64,000 nucleotides of DNA, taken from assembly GCA_900315675.1 (NCBI GenBank), contig OMZY01000002.1, positions 223,770 through 287,769 of the forward strand, in the 5' to 3' direction. The DNA is from an uncultured Eubacteriales bacterium. GTDB lineage: Bacteria > Bacillota > Clostridia > Christensenellales > Aristaeellaceae. The stretch's first letter is position 1. Each line of letters starts with the position of its first letter. This document shows, piece by piece, positions 375-11,701 of this stretch. A program made the position numbers and the translations under genes. The notes beneath the pieces were generated by a model, which worked only from the letters and a program-made list of their open reading frames with translations, searched no databases and had not been told where the DNA came from.

Positions 375-402
375 ATTCTGAATTCTGAATTCTGAATTCT
401 GA
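375..402. repeat. Heptamer tandem repeat after gltD
   Basis: Four perfect copies of the 7-bp unit ATTCTGA run from 375 to 402. On the minus strand the array starts at the gltD stop codon, whose TAA occupies 404-406. It is one of six such 7-bp arrays in the first 12 kb. Confidence 0.9.
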
Positions 403-403
403 A

Positions 404-1810
404 TTAGAGGAAATTGATCTCCCGATCAATTTCCATCGCCGCCGCTCTTCCGTCCGCCAGTGCGCGCACCACCAGGGACTGTCCGTTGCGCATATCCCCG
501 GCACTGTAGATCTTTCCACCCAGGTGATGGCTTCCGTCTTCCGGCAGCAGCCGTCCCCGGCCATCCGCCTTCAGGTCAAAGCTGGACAGCGTCTTTTCCT
601 CGCAGCCTACGAAACCGGCCGCAATCAGCAGCAGTTCACAGGGCAGCGTCTGTTCGCTGCCGGGAACCTGCTCAAACCTTCCTTCAGGTGTCCGCTGCAG
701 CTTCACGGTTTCGAGTCCGTTAATCCGGCCTGTCTCATCCGTCAGGATCTGTTTCACTGTGGTCTCATAGATCCGGGGATCGCTTCCCTGGCGGTAAATA
801 GCTTCCATCTGGCCATAGTCCGTCCGCAGGGTCCTCGGCCATTCAGGCCATGGATTGTTTGCGGTCCGGTCCACAGGCGGAGCAGGCATCATTTCCAGCT
901 GCGTCACGCTGACGCATCCCTGCCGCAGGGCAGTACCCACACAGTCATTGCCCGTATCGCCGCCGCCGACCACAATCACGTGCTTTCCTTCTGCGCTTGC
1001 TTCGGATGCAGCGCCTTCCAGCACCGCCTTCGTTGCCGCTGTCAGGAAGTCCACAGCAAACATCACGCCCTGGGCATCCATATGCTCCACGTTCAGAGAG
1101 CGGGGCTTCCGCGCGCCGCCGCACAGCAGCACCGCGTCATAATCCTGGAGTTCTTCAGCCTTCGCTTCGGTATTCAGTTCAAACCGGATACCCTCCGCCT
1201 CCATCAGGCGGATCCGGCGTTCCACAATGCCCTTGGGCAGCTTCATGTTCGGAATGCCGTACATCAGCAGTCCGCCGGGGCGGTCTGCTTTTTCAATCAC
1301 AGTCACTTCATGCCCCAGCTGGTTCAGCAGGTCTGCCGCCGCCAGTCCGGAAGGGCCGCTGCCAACCACGGCCACACGTTTTCCCGTGCGCGCCGCCGGG
1401 ATCCTCGGCTGAATCCAGCCCTTGGCAAACCCGGTCTCGATCAGATACAGCTCATTGTCTTTATTGGTTGTCGCATCATTCTCCAGGTTGCATGCCTTTT
1501 CGCACAGTGCCGGACACACATGTCCTGTAAATTCCGGGAAGGGTGCCGTCCGCAGCAGGCGGCGCAGCGCCTCCTGCTCCTGCCCCCGGTAAAGCAGGTC
1601 GTTCCACTCAGGAATCAGGTTATGCAGCGGGCAGCCGAAGTCTGACTGGCAGAAGGGCACGCCGCAGTTCATGCACCGGGATGCCTGTGCGCGTCTCGCC
1701 TCACAGGACTGGCAGGTATGCAGGTCCTCAAAATCACCGAGCCGCGTCTCCTCATCCCGGAAGGGATTCTCTGTCCTGGCAACATCCAGAAAGCCCGTCG
1801 AACTGCCCAT
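404..1810 (-). CDS. gltD: Glutamate synthase (NADPH) small subunit
   Basis: This 468-residue protein feeds electrons from NADPH through FAD and Fe-S clusters to the large GOGAT subunit, which makes glutamate from glutamine and 2-oxoglutarate. The cysteine-rich N-terminus (about residues 33-64 and 98-110) fits the two 4Fe-4S sites. A GxGxxG FAD fold with VVGSGPSGLAAA is near residue 150, and a second nucleotide fold with VVGGGDTGND is near 280. The C-terminus carries the YSAGDMRNG FAD motif. The ATG at 1810 follows AAGGTG at good spacing. The gene is last in the leftward operon and is separated from gltB by the hairpin array at 1838-1976. Length is normal for the family. Confidence 0.96.
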   Translation of the reverse strand: MGSSTGFLDVARTENPFRDEETRLGDFEDLHTCQSCEARRAQASRCMNCGVPFCQSDFGCPLHNLIPEWNDLLYRGQEQEALRRLLRTAPFPEFTGHVCPALCEKACNLENDATTNKDNELYLIETGFAKGWIQPRIPAARTGKRVAVVGSGPSGLAAADLLNQLGHEVTVIEKADRPGGLLMYGIPNMKLPKGIVERRIRLMEAEGIRFELNTEAKAEELQDYDAVLLCGGARKPRSLNVEHMDAQGVMFAVDFLTAATKAVLEGAASEASAEGKHVIVVGGGDTGNDCVGTALRQGCVSVTQLEMMPAPPVDRTANNPWPEWPRTLRTDYGQMEAIYRQGSDPRIYETTVKQILTDETGRINGLETVKLQRTPEGRFEQVPGSEQTLPCELLLIAAGFVGCEEKTLSSFDLKADGRGRLLPEDGSHHLGGKIYSAGDMRNGQSLVVRALADGRAAAMEIDREINFL

Positions 1811-1837
1811 ACATTCACCTTCAATTCGTTAAAGTCA

Positions 1838-1976
1838 CTTTCACATTCGGCGTCAGCCGAATAATTCATATCTGCGAAGCAGATAATTCACATTGGCCGA
1901 AGGCCAATATTTCATATTGCCGAAGGCTATAATTCATTCCTGGATTAACCAGGTTTTGCTCCTGGTTAATCCAGGA
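1838..1976 (-). repeat. Alternating heptamer/hairpin array between gltB and gltD
   Basis: Read on the minus strand, the interval tiles without gaps. After the gltB stop there is a 16-bp perfect hairpin with a 7-base loop (1938-1976). Then follow heptamer ATGAATT (1931-1937), hairpin (1916-1930), ATGAAAT (1909-1915), a 7-bp hairpin (1892-1908), GTGAATT (1885-1891), a 6-bp hairpin (1870-1884), ATGAATT (1863-1869), a 7-bp hairpin (1845-1862) and GTGAAAG (1838-1844). Stems differ in sequence but stay paired, apart from one mismatch in the 1916-1930 hairpin. Three loops are TTC closed by C-G. No T-run follows, so it is not a simple terminator. It may tune mRNA processing or stability. Confidence 0.9.
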
Positions 1977-1977
1977 C

Positions 1978-4900
1978 TTATCCCTGGCTGAGCCAGGCGA
2001 GGTATTCGTCGGAGATTACTGCCTTGAACTTCGGCAGATAATCGCTGAAGTGTTCCAGAATCTCTCTGGCTTTCTCAGAGCCTGTCGCCTTCACATGCAT
2101 TTCCAGCAGCCGGTTCAGTTCATCCGCCTGCTGTGCGGAGACTTCATAAAGCTTCACATGTCCGGTGTTCAACCGGTTCTGAAGCTGGCCGTCCTCGTCC
2201 AGCACCCAGGCCACGCCGCCGCTCATGCCTGCCGCGAAGTTGTCGCCCACAGGACCCAGCACTGCAACCCGGCCGCCGGTCATATATTCGCATCCATGGT
2301 CTCCCACGCCTTCAACCACGGCCCATGCGCCGGAATTGCGCACTGCAAAACGCTCACCCGCCATACCGGCCACAAAGGCATAGCCGCTGGTCGCGCCGTA
2401 CAGAGCCACGTTGCCGATCAGGGTGTCTTCCTTCTTCCAGATGCTGTCCGCGGGCGGGCATACCGCCAGCGTTCCGCCGGAAAGGCCTTTGCCCAGGTAG
2501 TCGTTTGCCACACCGTAAAGGGTGATCTCCTGTCCATGGGGCAGGAAGGCTCCGAAGGACTGACCGCCGCAGCCCTGGGCCTGGATATGCCGGTTGCCTT
2601 TCAGCATTGTGCCGAAAGCCCGGTCTGTTGTCATCAGATGCACATGATCCTGGTACAGCCGCACGTCCGCACGTTCAGCCAGGTGGAAATCAAACTTCGC
2701 CGCCGGCTGGAAGTGCGTGTTCCGGGCGAATCCGGTCAGGTCACTCAGATCCATGGCTGCGTCGTCTTTCATCACCAGCAGGTCGCTGCGGCCCACCAGT
2801 TCATCCACAGTGCGCGCACCGAGCTTTGCCATGATCTCCCGCATCTGCTCCGCAATAAAGAGCATGAAGCGTTCCACGTATTCCGGCTTGCCCTTGAAGC
2901 GCTTGCGCAGTTCAGGATTCTGGGTTGCAATACCGAAGGGGCAGGTACCCAGCTGGCAGACCCGCATCATCCGGCAGCCCATGGTAACCAGGGGCGCCGT
3001 CGCGAAGCCGAACTGTTCTGCACCCAGCAGCAATGCCACCATCACGTCATGTCCGGTCATCAGCTTACCGTCTGTTTCCAGCGTAACCGTCTGGCGCAGC
3101 CGGTTGCGGCAAAGCACCTGATGAGCTTCCGCCAGGCCGATCTCCCAGGGCAGGCCCGCATGATGCACGCTGCTCATAGGTGCGGCACCGGTACCGCCTT
3201 CACCGCCGGAAATCAGGATGCCGCCGGCGCCGGCCTTGGCCACGCCGCTGGCAATGGTACCCACACCGGCGGAAGACACCAGCTTCACGGTGATCTTCGC
3301 GTCCTCGTTGGCACACTGCAGGTCATAAATCAGTTCAGCCAGATCCTCGATGGAATAAATATCATGATGCGGCGGCGGGGAAATCAGGGAGATTCCCGGG
3401 GTGGAGCAGCGGGTCTTCGCCACGCTGTCGGTCACCTTCGCGCCGGGCAGGTGTCCGCCCTCGCCGGGCTTGGCGCCCTGCGCCATCTTGATCTGTATTT
3501 CTTTTGCTGAGAGCAGGTATTCCCGCGTCACGCCAAAGCGGCCGGATGCCACCTGCTTGATGGCGGAGTTCAGGTCCGTTCCGAAGCGTTCCGGCAGTTC
3601 GCCGCCCTCGCCGCTGTTGGAACGTCCTCCCAGGTGGTTCATTGCCTTGGCCATGCACTCATGAGCTTCCTGGGAAATGGAACCGTAGCTCATAGCGCCG
3701 GTCCGGAAGCGCTTCACAATTTCGGATGCGGCTTCCACTTCCTCCAGCGGAACAGGACGGCAGGAATCGTAATTGAAGGAAAGCATGGAGCGGATGGTCC
3801 GCGGTCCTTCGTTCTCAATCCGCGCCGCATATTTATCAAAGGCAGCCCGGTCATCCGTCCATACCGCCTGTTGCAGCAGATGGATGGTTTCCGGGGCATA
3901 CAGATGTTCTTCTGCTGCCTCGCCTCTTCTGTACTTGTGCTTGCCTTCACTGACCAGTCCTTCTGCGCCGGCTGCGGCAAACGCGGCTTCATGATGATAC
4001 CGGCTGTCTGCTTCAATCCGGTTCAGGTCTGTTCCGCCCAGGGAGCAGGGTGTATTGGTGAAATAGGTCTTAACCAGGCCCTGATCCAGACCCACAGCCT
4101 CAAACAGCTGGGCGCTCTGGTATGCCTGTAGTACGGATACACCCATCTTGGAAGCGATCTTCAGCACACCAGCGGTCAGCGCCTTGTTGTAATCCCGGAT
4201 TGCTTCTTCCGGAGTCTTGTCAATCTGTCCATCCGCGCAGAGGGCTCGTACGCAGGCATGAGCCAGGTACGGGTTTACCGCCCGGGCACCGAAGCCGATC
4301 AGCATGGCCAGCTGGTGCACGTCTCGGGGCTCACCGCTTTCAAGGATCACGGAAACCGCAGTACGCTTTTTCTTTCCGATCAGATGCTGTTCCAGGGCGG
4401 ACACCGCCAGCAGCGAAGGAATCGCGATGGCGTCCGGTCCGACGCCCTGGTCAGACAGGATCAGGATATTGATATGGTCACGGCATGCCTGGTCGCAGAC
4501 GGCAAAGAAATGTTCCAGTGCGTCCCGCAGGCTGCCTTTCTTATCATAGAGTAAGGAGACTGTGCGTACAGAGAAATCCGGATGATCCATCTCCCGAATC
4601 CGCTGCAGTTCCTCCTCGGTCAGTACCGGGGAGGGCAGCTCCAGCACGGCGCTGTTTCCCGCCTCCCGGGAAAGCAGGTTGCCGTCGTCGCCGACGTAGA
4701 TGGAGCAGTCGGTCTTCACTTCTTCCCGCAGCGCGTCAATCGGCGGGTTGGTCACCTGTGCGAAACGCTGGCGGAAGTAGTCATACAAGGAAGGATGGGT
4801 TTTCGACAGCGCCGCCACCGGCACGTCCGCGCCCATGGAAACGATAGGTTCCGTGCCCTTCGCCGCCATCGGCAGTACGATGTCCTGCACGTCTTCCCAT

Positions 4901-6297
4901 GTATAATGGAATGCCTTGCAGAGCTTTTCCCGCTCCGCTTCCGGCAGAATATCCTCTTTAACTTCAGCTGTTGGCAGGTCCTCCAGCCGGACCAGTTTCT
5001 GCATCCACTCCGTATAGGGATGCTCCTGGGCAAAGCGGGTCTTCAGGGCCTCGCTTTCCGTCAGCCGGCCTGTCTTCAGATCTGCTTCCAGCACGTCTCC
5101 GGCTTTCAGCTTCCAGCGCCGCAGAATATGGGCATTTTCTTCAAACAGCACGCCTGCCTCGGAGGTCAGGATCAACCGCCGGTCATCCGTCAGTGCGCAG
5201 CGCAGCGGGCGCAGGCCGTTCCGGTCCAGGGACGCGCACACTGTGTCGCCGTCGGAATACAGGATTGCCGCGGGGCCGTCCCAGGGCTCCATCATTGTGG
5301 CATAGTAGCGGTACAGATCCCGCCAGGCTGTTTCTTTCTTCAGCCCCTGCCAGGGTTCCGGCAGCAGAATCATTCCGGCCAGCGGCAGCGGGAATCCGTT
5401 CATCGCCAGGAACTCCAGGGTATTATCCAGCATCTGGCTGTCGCTTCCGTCCGGATCAACCACCGGCAGTACGCGCTTCATTTCCGCGCCCATCACGTCG
5501 GAACGCATGGTTTCTTCACGCGCCTTCATCCGGTCATGGTTGCCGCGGATGGTATTGATTTCCCCGTTATGCAGCAGCATCCGCTGGGGATGTGCCTTGC
5601 TCCAGGACGGGAAAGTATTGGTAGAAAAACGGGAGTGCACCATCGCCATACTGCTGGCATAGCGCACGTCCTGCAGATCGTCATAGAAAGAACGCAGCTG
5701 GTTCACCAGCATCATGCCCTTGTAGACGATCGTCCGGCTGGACAGGGAGCATACATATGCGTCCGTGTCCTGGTGTTCAAAAACCCGCCGTAATATAAAA
5801 AGCCGCCGGTCAAAGTCCTGACCGGCACCGGTCTCCTTCGGCCTTTTTAAAAAGCACTGTCGGATGCACGGCATCGTCCGCCGTGCTCCTGCGCCCAGCT
5901 GGGCCGGGTGGCAGGGTACCTCCCGCCACCCGAGCACCTGAATCCCCTCGGATTCCGCCAGCTGTTCAAAGATTCTTGCTGTATTCTGAGCTCCGACTTC
6001 ATCCTCCGGCAGGAAGAACATACCCACGCCGTAATCTCCGGGGTTGCCCAGGGCGATTCCTTCTTCCCTGGCCCAGGCGGCAAACAGGGTATGGGGCAGC
6101 TGAGTCATAATGCCCACGCCGTCTCCGGTAGTTCCTTCCGCATCGCTGCCCGCGCGGTGCGCCAGGCGTTCCACAATACACAGTGCCTGATCCACCGTCC
6201 GGTGGGTTGCCTTCGCGTTCAGATCCACCACGGCGCCGACGCCGCAGCTGTCATGTTCCAATTCTTTATGATAAAGAGGATACTGTCGGTCAGTCAT
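1978..6297 (-). CDS. gltB: Glutamate synthase large subunit
   Basis: The 1439-residue ferredoxin/NADPH-type GOGAT large subunit hydrolyses glutamine and transfers ammonia to 2-oxoglutarate. The class II amidotransferase domain starts at a DSCGVGAVV segment whose Cys18 should become the N-terminal nucleophile after propeptide removal. The central and FMN/synthase domains follow. The cysteines of CQLGTCPFGIA near residue 1110 fit the 3Fe-4S site. A C-terminal GxGxG beta-helix domain completes the protein. The start at 6297 is chosen because GGAGG lies just upstream and the protein begins MTDRQYPLYHKE. An in-frame ATG at 6366 would only translate the heptamer repeat. No promoter is seen between this gene and the ANTAR gene, so it is probably cotranscribed from glnA. 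Confidence 0.96.
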   Translation of the reverse strand: MTDRQYPLYHKELEHDSCGVGAVVDLNAKATHRTVDQALCIVERLAHRAGSDAEGTTGDGVGIMTQLPHTLFAAWAREEGIALGNPGDYGVGMFFLPEDEVGAQNTARIFEQLAESEGIQVLGWREVPCHPAQLGAGARRTMPCIRQCFLKRPKETGAGQDFDRRLFILRRVFEHQDTDAYVCSLSSRTIVYKGMMLVNQLRSFYDDLQDVRYASSMAMVHSRFSTNTFPSWSKAHPQRMLLHNGEINTIRGNHDRMKAREETMRSDVMGAEMKRVLPVVDPDGSDSQMLDNTLEFLAMNGFPLPLAGMILLPEPWQGLKKETAWRDLYRYYATMMEPWDGPAAILYSDGDTVCASLDRNGLRPLRCALTDDRRLILTSEAGVLFEENAHILRRWKLKAGDVLEADLKTGRLTESEALKTRFAQEHPYTEWMQKLVRLEDLPTAEVKEDILPEAEREKLCKAFHYTWEDVQDIVLPMAAKGTEPIVSMGADVPVAALSKTHPSLYDYFRQRFAQVTNPPIDALREEVKTDCSIYVGDDGNLLSREAGNSAVLELPSPVLTEEELQRIREMDHPDFSVRTVSLLYDKKGSLRDALEHFFAVCDQACRDHINILILSDQGVGPDAIAIPSLLAVSALEQHLIGKKKRTAVSVILESGEPRDVHQLAMLIGFGARAVNPYLAHACVRALCADGQIDKTPEEAIRDYNKALTAGVLKIASKMGVSVLQAYQSAQLFEAVGLDQGLVKTYFTNTPCSLGGTDLNRIEADSRYHHEAAFAAAGAEGLVSEGKHKYRRGEAAEEHLYAPETIHLLQQAVWTDDRAAFDKYAARIENEGPRTIRSMLSFNYDSCRPVPLEEVEAASEIVKRFRTGAMSYGSISQEAHECMAKAMNHLGGRSNSGEGGELPERFGTDLNSAIKQVASGRFGVTREYLLSAKEIQIKMAQGAKPGEGGHLPGAKVTDSVAKTRCSTPGISLISPPPHHDIYSIEDLAELIYDLQCANEDAKITVKLVSSAGVGTIASGVAKAGAGGILISGGEGGTGAAPMSSVHHAGLPWEIGLAEAHQVLCRNRLRQTVTLETDGKLMTGHDVMVALLLGAEQFGFATAPLVTMGCRMMRVCQLGTCPFGIATQNPELRKRFKGKPEYVERFMLFIAEQMREIMAKLGARTVDELVGRSDLLVMKDDAAMDLSDLTGFARNTHFQPAAKFDFHLAERADVRLYQDHVHLMTTDRAFGTMLKGNRHIQAQGCGGQSFGAFLPHGQEITLYGVANDYLGKGLSGGTLAVCPPADSIWKKEDTLIGNVALYGATSGYAFVAGMAGERFAVRNSGAWAVVEGVGDHGCEYMTGGRVAVLGPVGDNFAAGMSGGVAWVLDEDGQLQNRLNTGHVKLYEVSAQQADELNRLLEMHVKATGSEKAREILEHFSDYLPKFKAVISDEYLAWLSQG

Positions 6298-6326
6298 CTT
6301 AACTCCCTCCGGAAGGATGGGAGTTG

Positions 6327-6368
6327 AGAACTCTACACTCTCAACTCTGCACTCTTCACTCTTCACTC
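6327..6368 (-). repeat. Heptamer array between ANTAR gene and gltB
   Basis: On the minus strand six consecutive 7-bp units read GAGTGAA, GAGTGAA, GAGTGCA, GAGTTGA, GAGTGTA and GAGTTCT. The first unit contains the TGA stop of the ANTAR gene. The array fills most of the gap before the gltB ribosome site. Confidence 0.88.
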
Positions 6369-6887
6369 AGACTTGTCGAGAATTTGCTGAGCAAATTCCG
6401 CCATCTTCATGCCGTGGTTCATGGCGTACTGCTGCATTGCGCGGTGCGCTTCCGGTTCGGTCAGTCCTTTCTGTTTCATCAGGACAGCCTTTGCCCGGTC
6501 CACTATATCCTTGCTTTCCCCTGTCCGATGGGGCAGCTTCATCCGATGCAGCTGTGACAGCATCTCCACCGCGCCGATCACAGCCTGTCCGGAAGCCGGC
6601 ATCGCCAGCCGGAAAATGTTCGGCGATTCGATGTTGTCCAGCACCGCCTGTTTGGCAATCAGCAGAATCTGGATACTGTCCTTATAGTCCCACATCAGTT
6701 CATCCGGTTTACAATCCGGAGTGAAACCGATCATAACCACAACACAATCTTCGCTTTCGCTCAGTGCCCGGCGCAGCTCACTGCCTGATGAGCAGCTTCG
6801 GAACACCTGCAATCCGGAGGAGGCAAGAAGCCTGACGAGCTTTGAACGGCTGTCTTCCGACTGGCTGACAACAACGATCCTGGCCAC
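6363..6887 (-). CDS. nitR: ANTAR-domain RNA-binding antiterminator (NitR-like)
   Basis: This 174-residue protein has an N-terminal receiver-like fold and a C-terminal ANTAR domain at about residues 118-170 (SKDIVDRAKAVLMKQKGLTE and the helices after it). ANTAR proteins bind RNA hairpins and prevent transcription termination. The receiver lacks the usual phospho-acceptor aspartate after strand 3, where the protein reads VVVMIGFTPDC. The signal is therefore probably not phosphorylation. Position between glnA and gltB matches the glnA-nitR-glt arrangement described in solventogenic clostridia, which supports a nitrogen role. It probably acts on the terminator in the glnA leader. The start is GTG at 6887 with GGAGGTGG upstream. 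Confidence 0.85.
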   Translation of the reverse strand: MARIVVVSQSEDSRSKLVRLLASSGLQVFRSCSSGSELRRALSESEDCVVVMIGFTPDCKPDELMWDYKDSIQILLIAKQAVLDNIESPNIFRLAMPASGQAVIGAVEMLSQLHRMKLPHRTGESKDIVDRAKAVLMKQKGLTEPEAHRAMQQYAMNHGMKMAEFAQQILDKSE

Positions 6888-6907: not shown

Positions 6908-6928
6908 AATTCACAATTCATGATTCAC
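6908..6928 (-). repeat. Heptamer array in the ANTAR gene leader
   Basis: Three 7-bp units on the minus strand read GTGAATC, ATGAATT and GTGAATT, ending about 20 bases before the GTG start. The unit matches the one in the guaA leader at 11669-11696. Confidence 0.8.
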
Positions 6929-6956
6929 AATGCTTATTTTGATATAGTTCGCCCTA

Positions 6957-7012: not shown

Positions 7013-7031
7013 TGCGGAACCTTTATTTCAT

Positions 7032-7051
7032 TGTGCATTATGCATTGTGCA

Positions 7052-7052
<1 letters not shown>
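7032..7052 (-). repeat. Heptamer array after glnA
   Basis: Three 7-bp units on the minus strand read ATGCACA, ATGCATA and ATGCACA, followed by a degenerate fourth. The array begins inside the glnA stop codon TAA (7052-7054). Confidence 0.82.
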
Positions 7053-8383
<1,331 letters not shown>

Positions 8384-8406
8384 AATACTGACCCCCTCAG
8401 CGTCAT

Positions 8407-8455
8407 AATAAAAGAAAGAGAGCAAGGTGCATCGTCAGCACGACACCCTTGCCCT
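8407..8455 (-). terminator. Leader terminator of glnA
   Basis: In the glnA leader AGGGCAAGGGTG pairs with CACCTTGCTCT (one bulged base, one wobble), with a small apical stem TCGT/ACGA. CTTTCTTTTATT follows. It begins within about five bases of the expected transcript start and ends before the ribosome site. Transcripts should therefore stop unless an antiterminator acts, and the ANTAR protein is the obvious candidate. GCATC at the 5' end could pair with GATGC in the hairpin as an alternative fold. Confidence 0.75.
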
Positions 8456-9896: not shown

Positions 9897-9931
9897 TCAT
9901 TATTAATTATGCATTATTAATTATGAATTGG
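9897..9931 (+). repeat. Heptamer array in asnB leader
   Basis: Units of 7 bp read TCATTAT, TAATTAT, GCATTAT, TAATTAT and GAATTGG. The last unit merges into the asnB ribosome site. Confidence 0.82.
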
Positions 9932-11668: not shown

Positions 11669-11701
11669 AATTGTGAATTATGAATTGTGAATTGTGAATT
11701 G
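11669..11701 (+). repeat. Heptamer array in guaA leader
   Basis: AATTGTG, AATTATG, AATTGTG and AATTGTG run in tandem (11669-11696), then AATTG. The array lies between promoter and ribosome site, so it is transcribed into the 5' leader. Confidence 0.88.

Follow-up and report, generated by a model that had tools for sequence, protein, structure and literature searches.

A dispersed Gut-1-like repeat of hairpins and heptamers between gltB and gltD, with S23/IVP proteins as candidate partners

Among the described systems closest to the array reported here, cyanobacterial STRR are heptanucleotide tandem repeats, and TRAP is a ring protein acting on a repeat array. Published units of heptanucleotide tandem repeats include TAACTGA (PMC4679880), GGGAATC and GGGGAYT (PMC4692102). 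In the passages that concern it, Gut-1 is described as a structured non-coding RNA of unknown function, represented by environmental (gut-metagenome) sequences only (PMC2864571). RAYT systems, as outlined in excerpts on the subject, consist of dispersed palindromes beside a partner gene, with repeat and protein matched by lineage (PMC3733652). In excerpts on 23S rRNA intervening sequences (IVS), an ORF of the PF05635 family lies within an element that is called selfish and whose function is given as unknown (PMC4990558).

The array between gltB and gltD and its relation to Gut-1

The window, that is, the whole stretch of 64,000 nucleotides that was analysed, comes from an uncultured Eubacteriales bacterium of the Aristaeellaceae (assembly GCA_900315675.1, contig OMZY01000002.1, positions 223,770 to 287,769). 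Between its gltB-like and gltD-like ORFs, positions 1838-1976 consist of five heptamers and five hairpins with zero spare bases, arranged with their neighbours as follows.

375..405, no strand assigned: period-7 run, ATTCTGA x4.4, abutting the stop codon of gltD
404..1810, minus strand: gltD-like ORF, small subunit, with 596 relatives in genome contigs
1831..1837, plus strand: leader AAAGTCA
1838..1844, plus strand: heptamer 1, CTTTCAC (GTGAAAG on the gene strand)
1845..1862, plus strand: hairpin 1, ATTCGGCGTCAGCCGAAT
1858..1939, minus strand: sub-threshold match to Gut-1 RNA (RF01706), 33.9 bits
1863..1869, plus strand: heptamer 2, AATTCAT
1870..1884, plus strand: hairpin 2, ATCTGCGAAGCAGAT, with a GAA triloop
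1885..1891, plus strand: heptamer 3, AATTCAC
1892..1908, plus strand: hairpin 3, ATTGGCCGAAGGCCAAT, with a GAA triloop
1909..1915, plus strand: heptamer 4, ATTTCAT
1916..1930, plus strand: hairpin 4, ATTGCCGAAGGCTAT, with one mismatch
1931..1937, plus strand: heptamer 5, AATTCAT
1938..1976, plus strand: terminal locus-specific hairpin of 39 nt, with a perfect 16-bp stem and a 7-nt loop, separated by one base from the stop codon of gltB
1978..6366, minus strand: gltB-like ORF, large subunit of glutamate synthase (product assigned by eye and by the first-pass annotation), its stop codon abutting the array

The first-pass annotation had described a gapless tiling of heptamers and hairpins, which is borne out by the plus-strand reading and by the RNA fold of the array (z = -7.4, equalled by 0 of 200 shuffles), and the perfect 16-bp stem that it gave for the largest hairpin is confirmed. 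Its placement of the array beside the gltB stop codon also stands, except that one base, and not two, separates the stop codon from the large hairpin. Upstream of gltB, an ANTAR-like regulator ORF (window 6363-6887, minus strand) and, beyond it, a glutamine-synthetase-like ORF (7052-8425, minus strand) were recognized by eye.

Comparison of the window with Rfam at the gathering score returned nothing. With permissive settings, the array aligns to the whole Gut-1 model (RF01706, positions 1-77) at 33.9 bits (E 5e-5), below the gathering score of 50, and this alignment does not support the earlier statement that the array fits no known design. Relatives score above 50, with 65.4 for L185, 72.6 for L223, 73.9 for L179 and 76.3 in both G041 and G022. 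The array is a divergent relative of Gut-1, near Gut-1 yet below its score. Under strict filters, by which weak matches are lost, Gut-1 matches occur in 8 of 45 genomes of the genus (46 to 54 each in G001, G041, G002 and G022) and in 5 of 398 genomes drawn from the phylum. The window's own genome (G000) has nine Gut-1 matches, none at or above the cut-off of 50. A separate and partial Rfam match, to a T-box leader (L029, 6798-7001, minus strand; 70.2 bits vs a gathering score of 93), is cut by the end of its stretch.

Dispersed copies, their placement and the folded strand

A search of its own genome with the array gave 35 further matches; one of these is a self-match, the large hairpin of the query being found again on the opposite strand. 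The pattern AWTTCAY-N-AWTTCAY-N-AWTTCAY yields 68 matches in this genome and 0 when read backwards. The first-pass annotation had proposed a search of relatives for further occurrences, with absence as the refuting result; five other genomes of the genus hold 18 to 115 pattern matches each. In a draw of 391 genomes, the pattern also finds chance matches in AT-rich genomes.

The copies follow a common plan, in which a leader, AAAGTAACTNTCAY, is followed by up to four small hairpins joined by the 7-nt linker AWTTCAY (RTGAAWT on the other strand) and often by a long locus-specific hairpin. The leader consensus, AAAGTAA, derives from the 64 distinct sequences among 71 retained leaders of four-hairpin arrays. 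A set of 128 arrays from five genomes was assembled from regions picked for containing matches (20 regions of G000 plus the window, and 10 each of G022, G001, G041 and G002). Small hairpins number four in 74 of these arrays, three in 36, two in 18 and more than four in none, which speaks against the open-ended growth by heptamer-hairpin units that had been envisaged. In 35 arrays of G000, 111 of 124 small hairpins are free of mismatches (the detector admits stems with at most one) and stem sequences vary among copies, so that the pattern first noticed in the window, pairing kept while stem sequences differ, extends to the dispersed copies. Between orthologous arrays, differences are 4 to 14 times more frequent in loops than in heptamers and 2 to 5 times more frequent than in stems, yet in two of three species pairs the upstream flank holds fewer differences than the loops do; these comparisons rest on small counts.

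A second array subfamily was noticed at least in L190, L191, L192, L199, L200, L207 and L208 (e.g. L191, minus strand, 2043). It has a ACTATAATCAC leader and hairpins joined by ATATCAT or CTATCAT, frequently ends in GTTGCGAAGCAAC-ATATCATT, and in some copies continues into an A-tract/T-tract hairpin resembling a bidirectional terminator. In L191 (G022), at the site homologous to L208 13113, an array hairpin is seemingly interrupted by about 110 bp of a different sequence, of which there are further copies in these genomes.

Measured from the final conserved codons of gltB, the span to gltD is 27-32 nt in 22 of 30 congeners, 191 nt in G000 and 149 nt in G002, the latter two both carrying arrays. 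Because the span is short in most congeners, the array at this junction is an insertion. The same junction holds pure heptamer runs in G022, G041 and G005, with lengths differing by 7 and 14 nt, a different heptamer run in G015, and other sequence in G054 and G004; on the GltD tree, two changes are needed for arrays and three for runs. Elsewhere, a three-hairpin array (83 nt) is present in G001 and absent in G022 and G041, with flanks 94.5-99.8% identical. Among homologous array sites of three species, 52 pairs are filled on both sides, 11 are apparently empty on one side and 13 are ambiguous. Presence and absence are clear, but of the target-site duplication that, with terminal inverted repeats, would mark a MITE, none was seen. 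The first-pass annotation had considered a mobile small repeat, and of this reading the dispersed small repeat, present or absent between relatives, is supported. At one site, a terminator-like hairpin is common to both alleles (L189 2889, minus strand, in G022 vs L197 in G001); the filled allele has it between heptamers, in the place of the fourth hairpin, and in the other allele TTTTAAG-type heptamers lie beside it. The gltB-gltD distance is 4 nt in an empty relative, and therefore open to translational coupling, and 167 nt here, with a row of hairpins between the genes; an effect of the array on gltBD through this separation is likely secondary.

Arrays have a fixed orientation relative to genes. 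Read on the AWTTCAY strand, 91 of the 128 arrays have a stop codon no more than 60 bp away on their 3' side and 8 on their 5' side, and none of the 128 falls within a gene call. Stop codons spanned by a hairpin of 12 bp or more are found in 32 of the 91 array-bearing genes vs 30 of 706 other genes. Fork direction was rejected as the cause of this polarity, given the 14 of 91 stop-adjacent arrays that follow minority-strand genes. Pure AATTCAY runs differ from arrays in polarity (2/33), so they were rejected as the same insertion class; NTTTMAG runs have a polarity like that of arrays (13/25). In other Clostridia, similar arrays occur in head-to-head pairs, often behind tRNA terminators, and among 52 loci picked for pattern matches, tRNA genes are found in 27 and the motif directly behind a tRNA and its terminator in 12. 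Two candidate functions of the array were discarded. A canonical intrinsic terminator is not indicated, since of 53 terminal hairpins none in the gene direction and 3 in the other are followed by a U-tract (at least five T in 8 nt), nor is a promoter within the leader, no conserved -35 being present before it.

Mismatches in short stems, read on the AWTTCAY strand within the genus, are G.T in 19 cases and A.C in one; long terminal hairpins lack this asymmetry (G.T 4, A.C 3). Among 277 distinct hairpins, GNA triloops number 105 vs 7 for the complement TNC, and in other Clostridia the counts are 44 vs 0. Mutation bias was dismissed as a source of the G.T excess, given that upstream intergenic DNA has a GC skew of -0.12 on the array strand, which should favour A.C. 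As judged from wobbles and loops, the strand that folds would be the AWTTCAY strand, which lies antisense to the adjacent gene and could fold as RNA or as single-stranded DNA. With RNA parameters, the gene strand gives the better fold of the whole array in 86 of 110 cases (14 of 22 in other Clostridia) because linker letters extend the stems there, and with DNA parameters the balance tips slightly to the AWTTCAY strand (64 vs 41). The Rfam model of Gut-1 is written on the gene strand, opposite to the AWTTCAY strand.

S23 genes beside hairpin chains and period-7 runs

A gene resembling PF05635 (23S rRNA IVP, or S23, a four-helix bundle) was noticed by eye adjoining three array loci, two of which were confirmed. 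In 64 genomes that were hand-chosen and not drawn, PF05635 is present in 21 of 22 array-bearing genomes vs 10 of 42 others, where the 42 'array-free' genomes include G012, G050 and G060 with one or two pattern matches (G060 also with one Gut-1 match) and G068 with an S23 gene (L327) beside a chain of another linker. G741 has Gut-1 matches and no PF05635, and G210 has PF05635 at sub-threshold level only. A link to a Y1 transposase of the RAYT-like kind was rejected, as PF01797 occurs in 28 of 45 genomes of the genus irrespective of arrays and the array-bearing G005 is without it.

The neighbourhoods of 70 PF05635 genes, taken from 83 matches, were compared with 20 control windows shifted along the same contigs. 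Arrays of the TCAY type lie within 200 bp of 12 of the 70 genes vs 0 of the 20 shifted windows. A chain detector that looks for two hairpins joined by similar 7-mers, and is given no linker sequence, finds hairpin chains within 700 bp of 27 of the 70 genes, 25 of them upstream, in comparison to 1 of 20 shifted windows, 0 of 70 shuffles and 1 of 485 windows from other loci. Within the same loci, chains are found in 26 of 164 near blocks vs 4 of 462 far blocks. The linkers beside S23 genes vary (WTTCAY, ATATCAY, ATATCGA, ATTTAGC, ATATCGC and others), and in about ten loci inspected by eye the element upstream is composite: its left and right arms carry the heptamer in opposite orientations, and it immediately precedes the gene or its promoter. 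By eye, these arms have three or four hairpins; five heptamers are therefore not universal. In L342 (G413), one S23 gene is preceded by two composites in tandem, whose heptamers differ (ATGAATT type in one, RTGAAAT type in the other). Carriage on phages or plasmids found no support: the G413 composite had no match in a phage or plasmid collection, the double array of G022 had none in a phage collection, and an S23 query against viral contigs found nothing.

Linker class follows the protein. On a tree of 69 of the 70 S23 proteins, linker classes need 10 changes (the least being 8; some reverse-complement linkers were counted apart), with a shuffled mean of 17.1 and 0 of 200 shuffles as low, and S23 clades sharing a linker class cross bacterial families.

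A second kind of repeat, the pure period-7 run, also accompanies S23 genes. Fourteen plasmid S23 genes (14 of 25 records) were taken from Treponema, cyanobacteria, Bernardetia, Chlorohelix and Monoglobus. No hairpin chain was found beside them with linkers of 5 to 9 nt, and a period-7 run lies no more than 150 bp from 13 of the 14 (the exception is Monoglobus), on both sides in 10. Such runs lie within 190 bp of 21 of the 70 PF05635 genes, again on both sides in 10. With flanks of 190 nt for the 70 genes and controls and of 150 nt for the plasmid genes, 34 of 84 S23 genes have runs, in comparison to 2 of 1297 and 2 of 80 in controls, and the same flank test gives 0 for S23 genes at periods 5, 6, 8, 9 and 10. 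Run-flanked PF05635 genes come from Clostridia and, on plasmids, from four additional phyla. The flanking heptamers of two-sided runs agree better inverted than direct in 17 of 20 cases, the exceptions being L369, L412 and L415. Within the same loci, runs occur in 57 of 164 gene-touching blocks vs 8 of 462 farther blocks. The 27 chain genes and the 21 run genes do not overlap, 22 of the 70 having neither kind of repeat, and on a tree of 65 of the 70 proteins, chain and run are separated by two changes (shuffled mean 15.9, 0 of 500 as low). The link between S23 genes and repeats is statistical but strong, specific for period 7 and matched to S23 clades.

In the intergenic DNA of the genus, local peaks as large as the lag-3 signal appear at lags 7, 14 and 21. 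(AATTCAY)3 has 10 to 239 matches, overlaps counted, in 10 of 16 genomes, 0 in the other six and 0 in all when read backwards. The S23 gene L352 of G000 is flanked by AATTCAG and AATTCTG heptamers, the type of the ATTCTGA run behind gltD. Six period-7 tandem repeats were noted in the first 12 kb of the window (375-405, 6330-6368, 6908-6931, 7029-7054, 9899-9929 and 11669-11701), each at a gene end or start or close to one. On Nostoc, Anabaena and Pseudanabaena plasmids, run-flanked S23 genes lie beside CRISPR cas1/cas2 (L418, L421, L425), and in L424 an S23 reading frame lies between restriction-modification genes. Literature searches of open-licence PMC papers found no publication linking S23 to repeats, and a term search of the main texts of PMC4692102 and PMC4679880 found no mention of S23 or four helix.

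A proposed S23/heptamer partnership and its comparison with known systems

Repeats recur beside S23 genes, and repeat and protein are therefore suggested to belong together. With a probability of about 0.6, the gltB-gltD array is a non-autonomous copy of a dispersed Gut-1-type repeat, whose partner is most likely an S23/IVP protein (PF05635). S23 matches PDB entries 2rld (E 2e-20) and, weakly, 2gsc (E 0.002), each with five chains, and a full array has five heptamers. The S23p of Xanthomonas is quoted, in a passage of PMC4990558, as a toroidal homopentamer of four-helix bundles. An S23 pentamer might then read the heptamers, one per subunit, with the hairpins as spacers that would hold the heptamers at set spacing, and S23 may help the repeat to spread to gene ends. 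Several points count against the proposal: PF05635 is not a known nuclease or recombinase, 22 of the 70 genes have neither kind of repeat, G741, G210 and the ten array-free genomes with PF05635 break the co-occurrence, pure AATTCAY runs differ from arrays in polarity, no target-site duplication was seen, the arms before S23 genes have three or four hairpins, and the window copy carries no S23 gene.

The proposal that the array acts chiefly as RNA, through exonuclease slowing, partial termination, gltD expression or an antisense or separate small RNA, the nearby S23 genes being incidental, is unlikely. The Rfam model is an RNA, hairpins stand directly behind stop codons and, where at least 12 bp long, span them far more often in array-bearing genes, the gene strand is the better folded with RNA parameters, and the wobbles of short stems suit a folded single strand; in addition, hairpin clusters have been proposed as terminators (PMC8355165). 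However, the terminal hairpins have no gene-direction U-tract, a -35 before the leader is not conserved, many unrelated genes precede arrays, wobbles and loops favour the antisense strand, and the adjacency to S23 would be left unexplained. Somewhat less probable again is that the repeats are selfish and S23 a fellow traveller, both collecting in tolerant intergenic sites or in the same mobile regions with no working partnership. The confinement of the repeats to intergenic DNA, the plasmid S23 genes among cas, restriction and integrase genes and the 22 S23 genes without a repeat are in keeping with this, but far blocks of the same loci rarely have repeats (chains 4/462, runs 8/462), S23 clade predicts linker class, and period 7 alone is enriched.

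Neutral dynamics, in which heptamer slippage would yield the linkers and template switching at imperfect palindromes the perfect stems, would account for runs differing by 7 and 14 nt at the same junction and for the intergenic peaks at lags 7, 14 and 21. Yet the four-hairpin cap, the fixed leader, the fixed polarity and the strand-asymmetric wobbles and loops would be unexpected, making this highly improbable. The proposed partnership of a Gut-1-type repeat with S23 extends to a wider and more tentative proposal, for which the odds fall a little short of even: S23/IVP proteins may be the missing partners of bacterial heptanucleotide repeats, each lineage reading its own heptamer, either as a pure run or as the hairpin-spaced Gut-1 type, and spreading or maintaining it at gene ends across phyla, with a pentameric ring binding five heptamers. 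If true, three orphans, the role of S23/IVP, the identity of Gut-1 and the origin of bacterial 7-nt repeats, would become one testable question. What is new is a candidate protein partner, S23, for hairpin-heptamer repeats.

In comparison with Gut-1, the array shares three hairpins joined by UGAAAU-type linkers, aligned over the full model, but has copies in the tens per genome, variable stems, four hairpins and a tie to gene 3' ends. If binding by S23 were confirmed, the strand on which Rfam places Gut-1 would also be called into question. The 23S rRNA IVS carries an S23/IVP ORF; here, 27 of the 70 S23 genes lie beside arrays, and the window copy is without an S23 gene; in contrast to the IVS, the array lies between gltB and gltD and not in rRNA, is built of heptamers and has many non-coding copies. 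With the heptanucleotide tandem repeats it shares a 7-nt unit, an intergenic location and a patchy distribution across phyla, and S23 genes on plasmids, those of Nostoc among them, are flanked by period-7 runs. Those repeats are pure head-to-tail runs, whereas hairpins stand between all heptamers of the array. TRAP offers a proposed analogy, an oligomeric ring that would meet regularly spaced short sites, although the spacers in the array are hairpins. REP/RAYT systems (REPtrons) resemble the array in their dispersed palindromes adjoining a partner gene and in the lineage match of repeat and protein. However, the linkers of the array are AWTTCAY / RTGAAWT without a GTAG tag, and the candidate partner is a four-helix-bundle protein and not a Y1 transposase; confirmed binding would define a repeat-protein partnership in which, unlike in REP/RAYT, an oligomeric ring takes the place of the nuclease.
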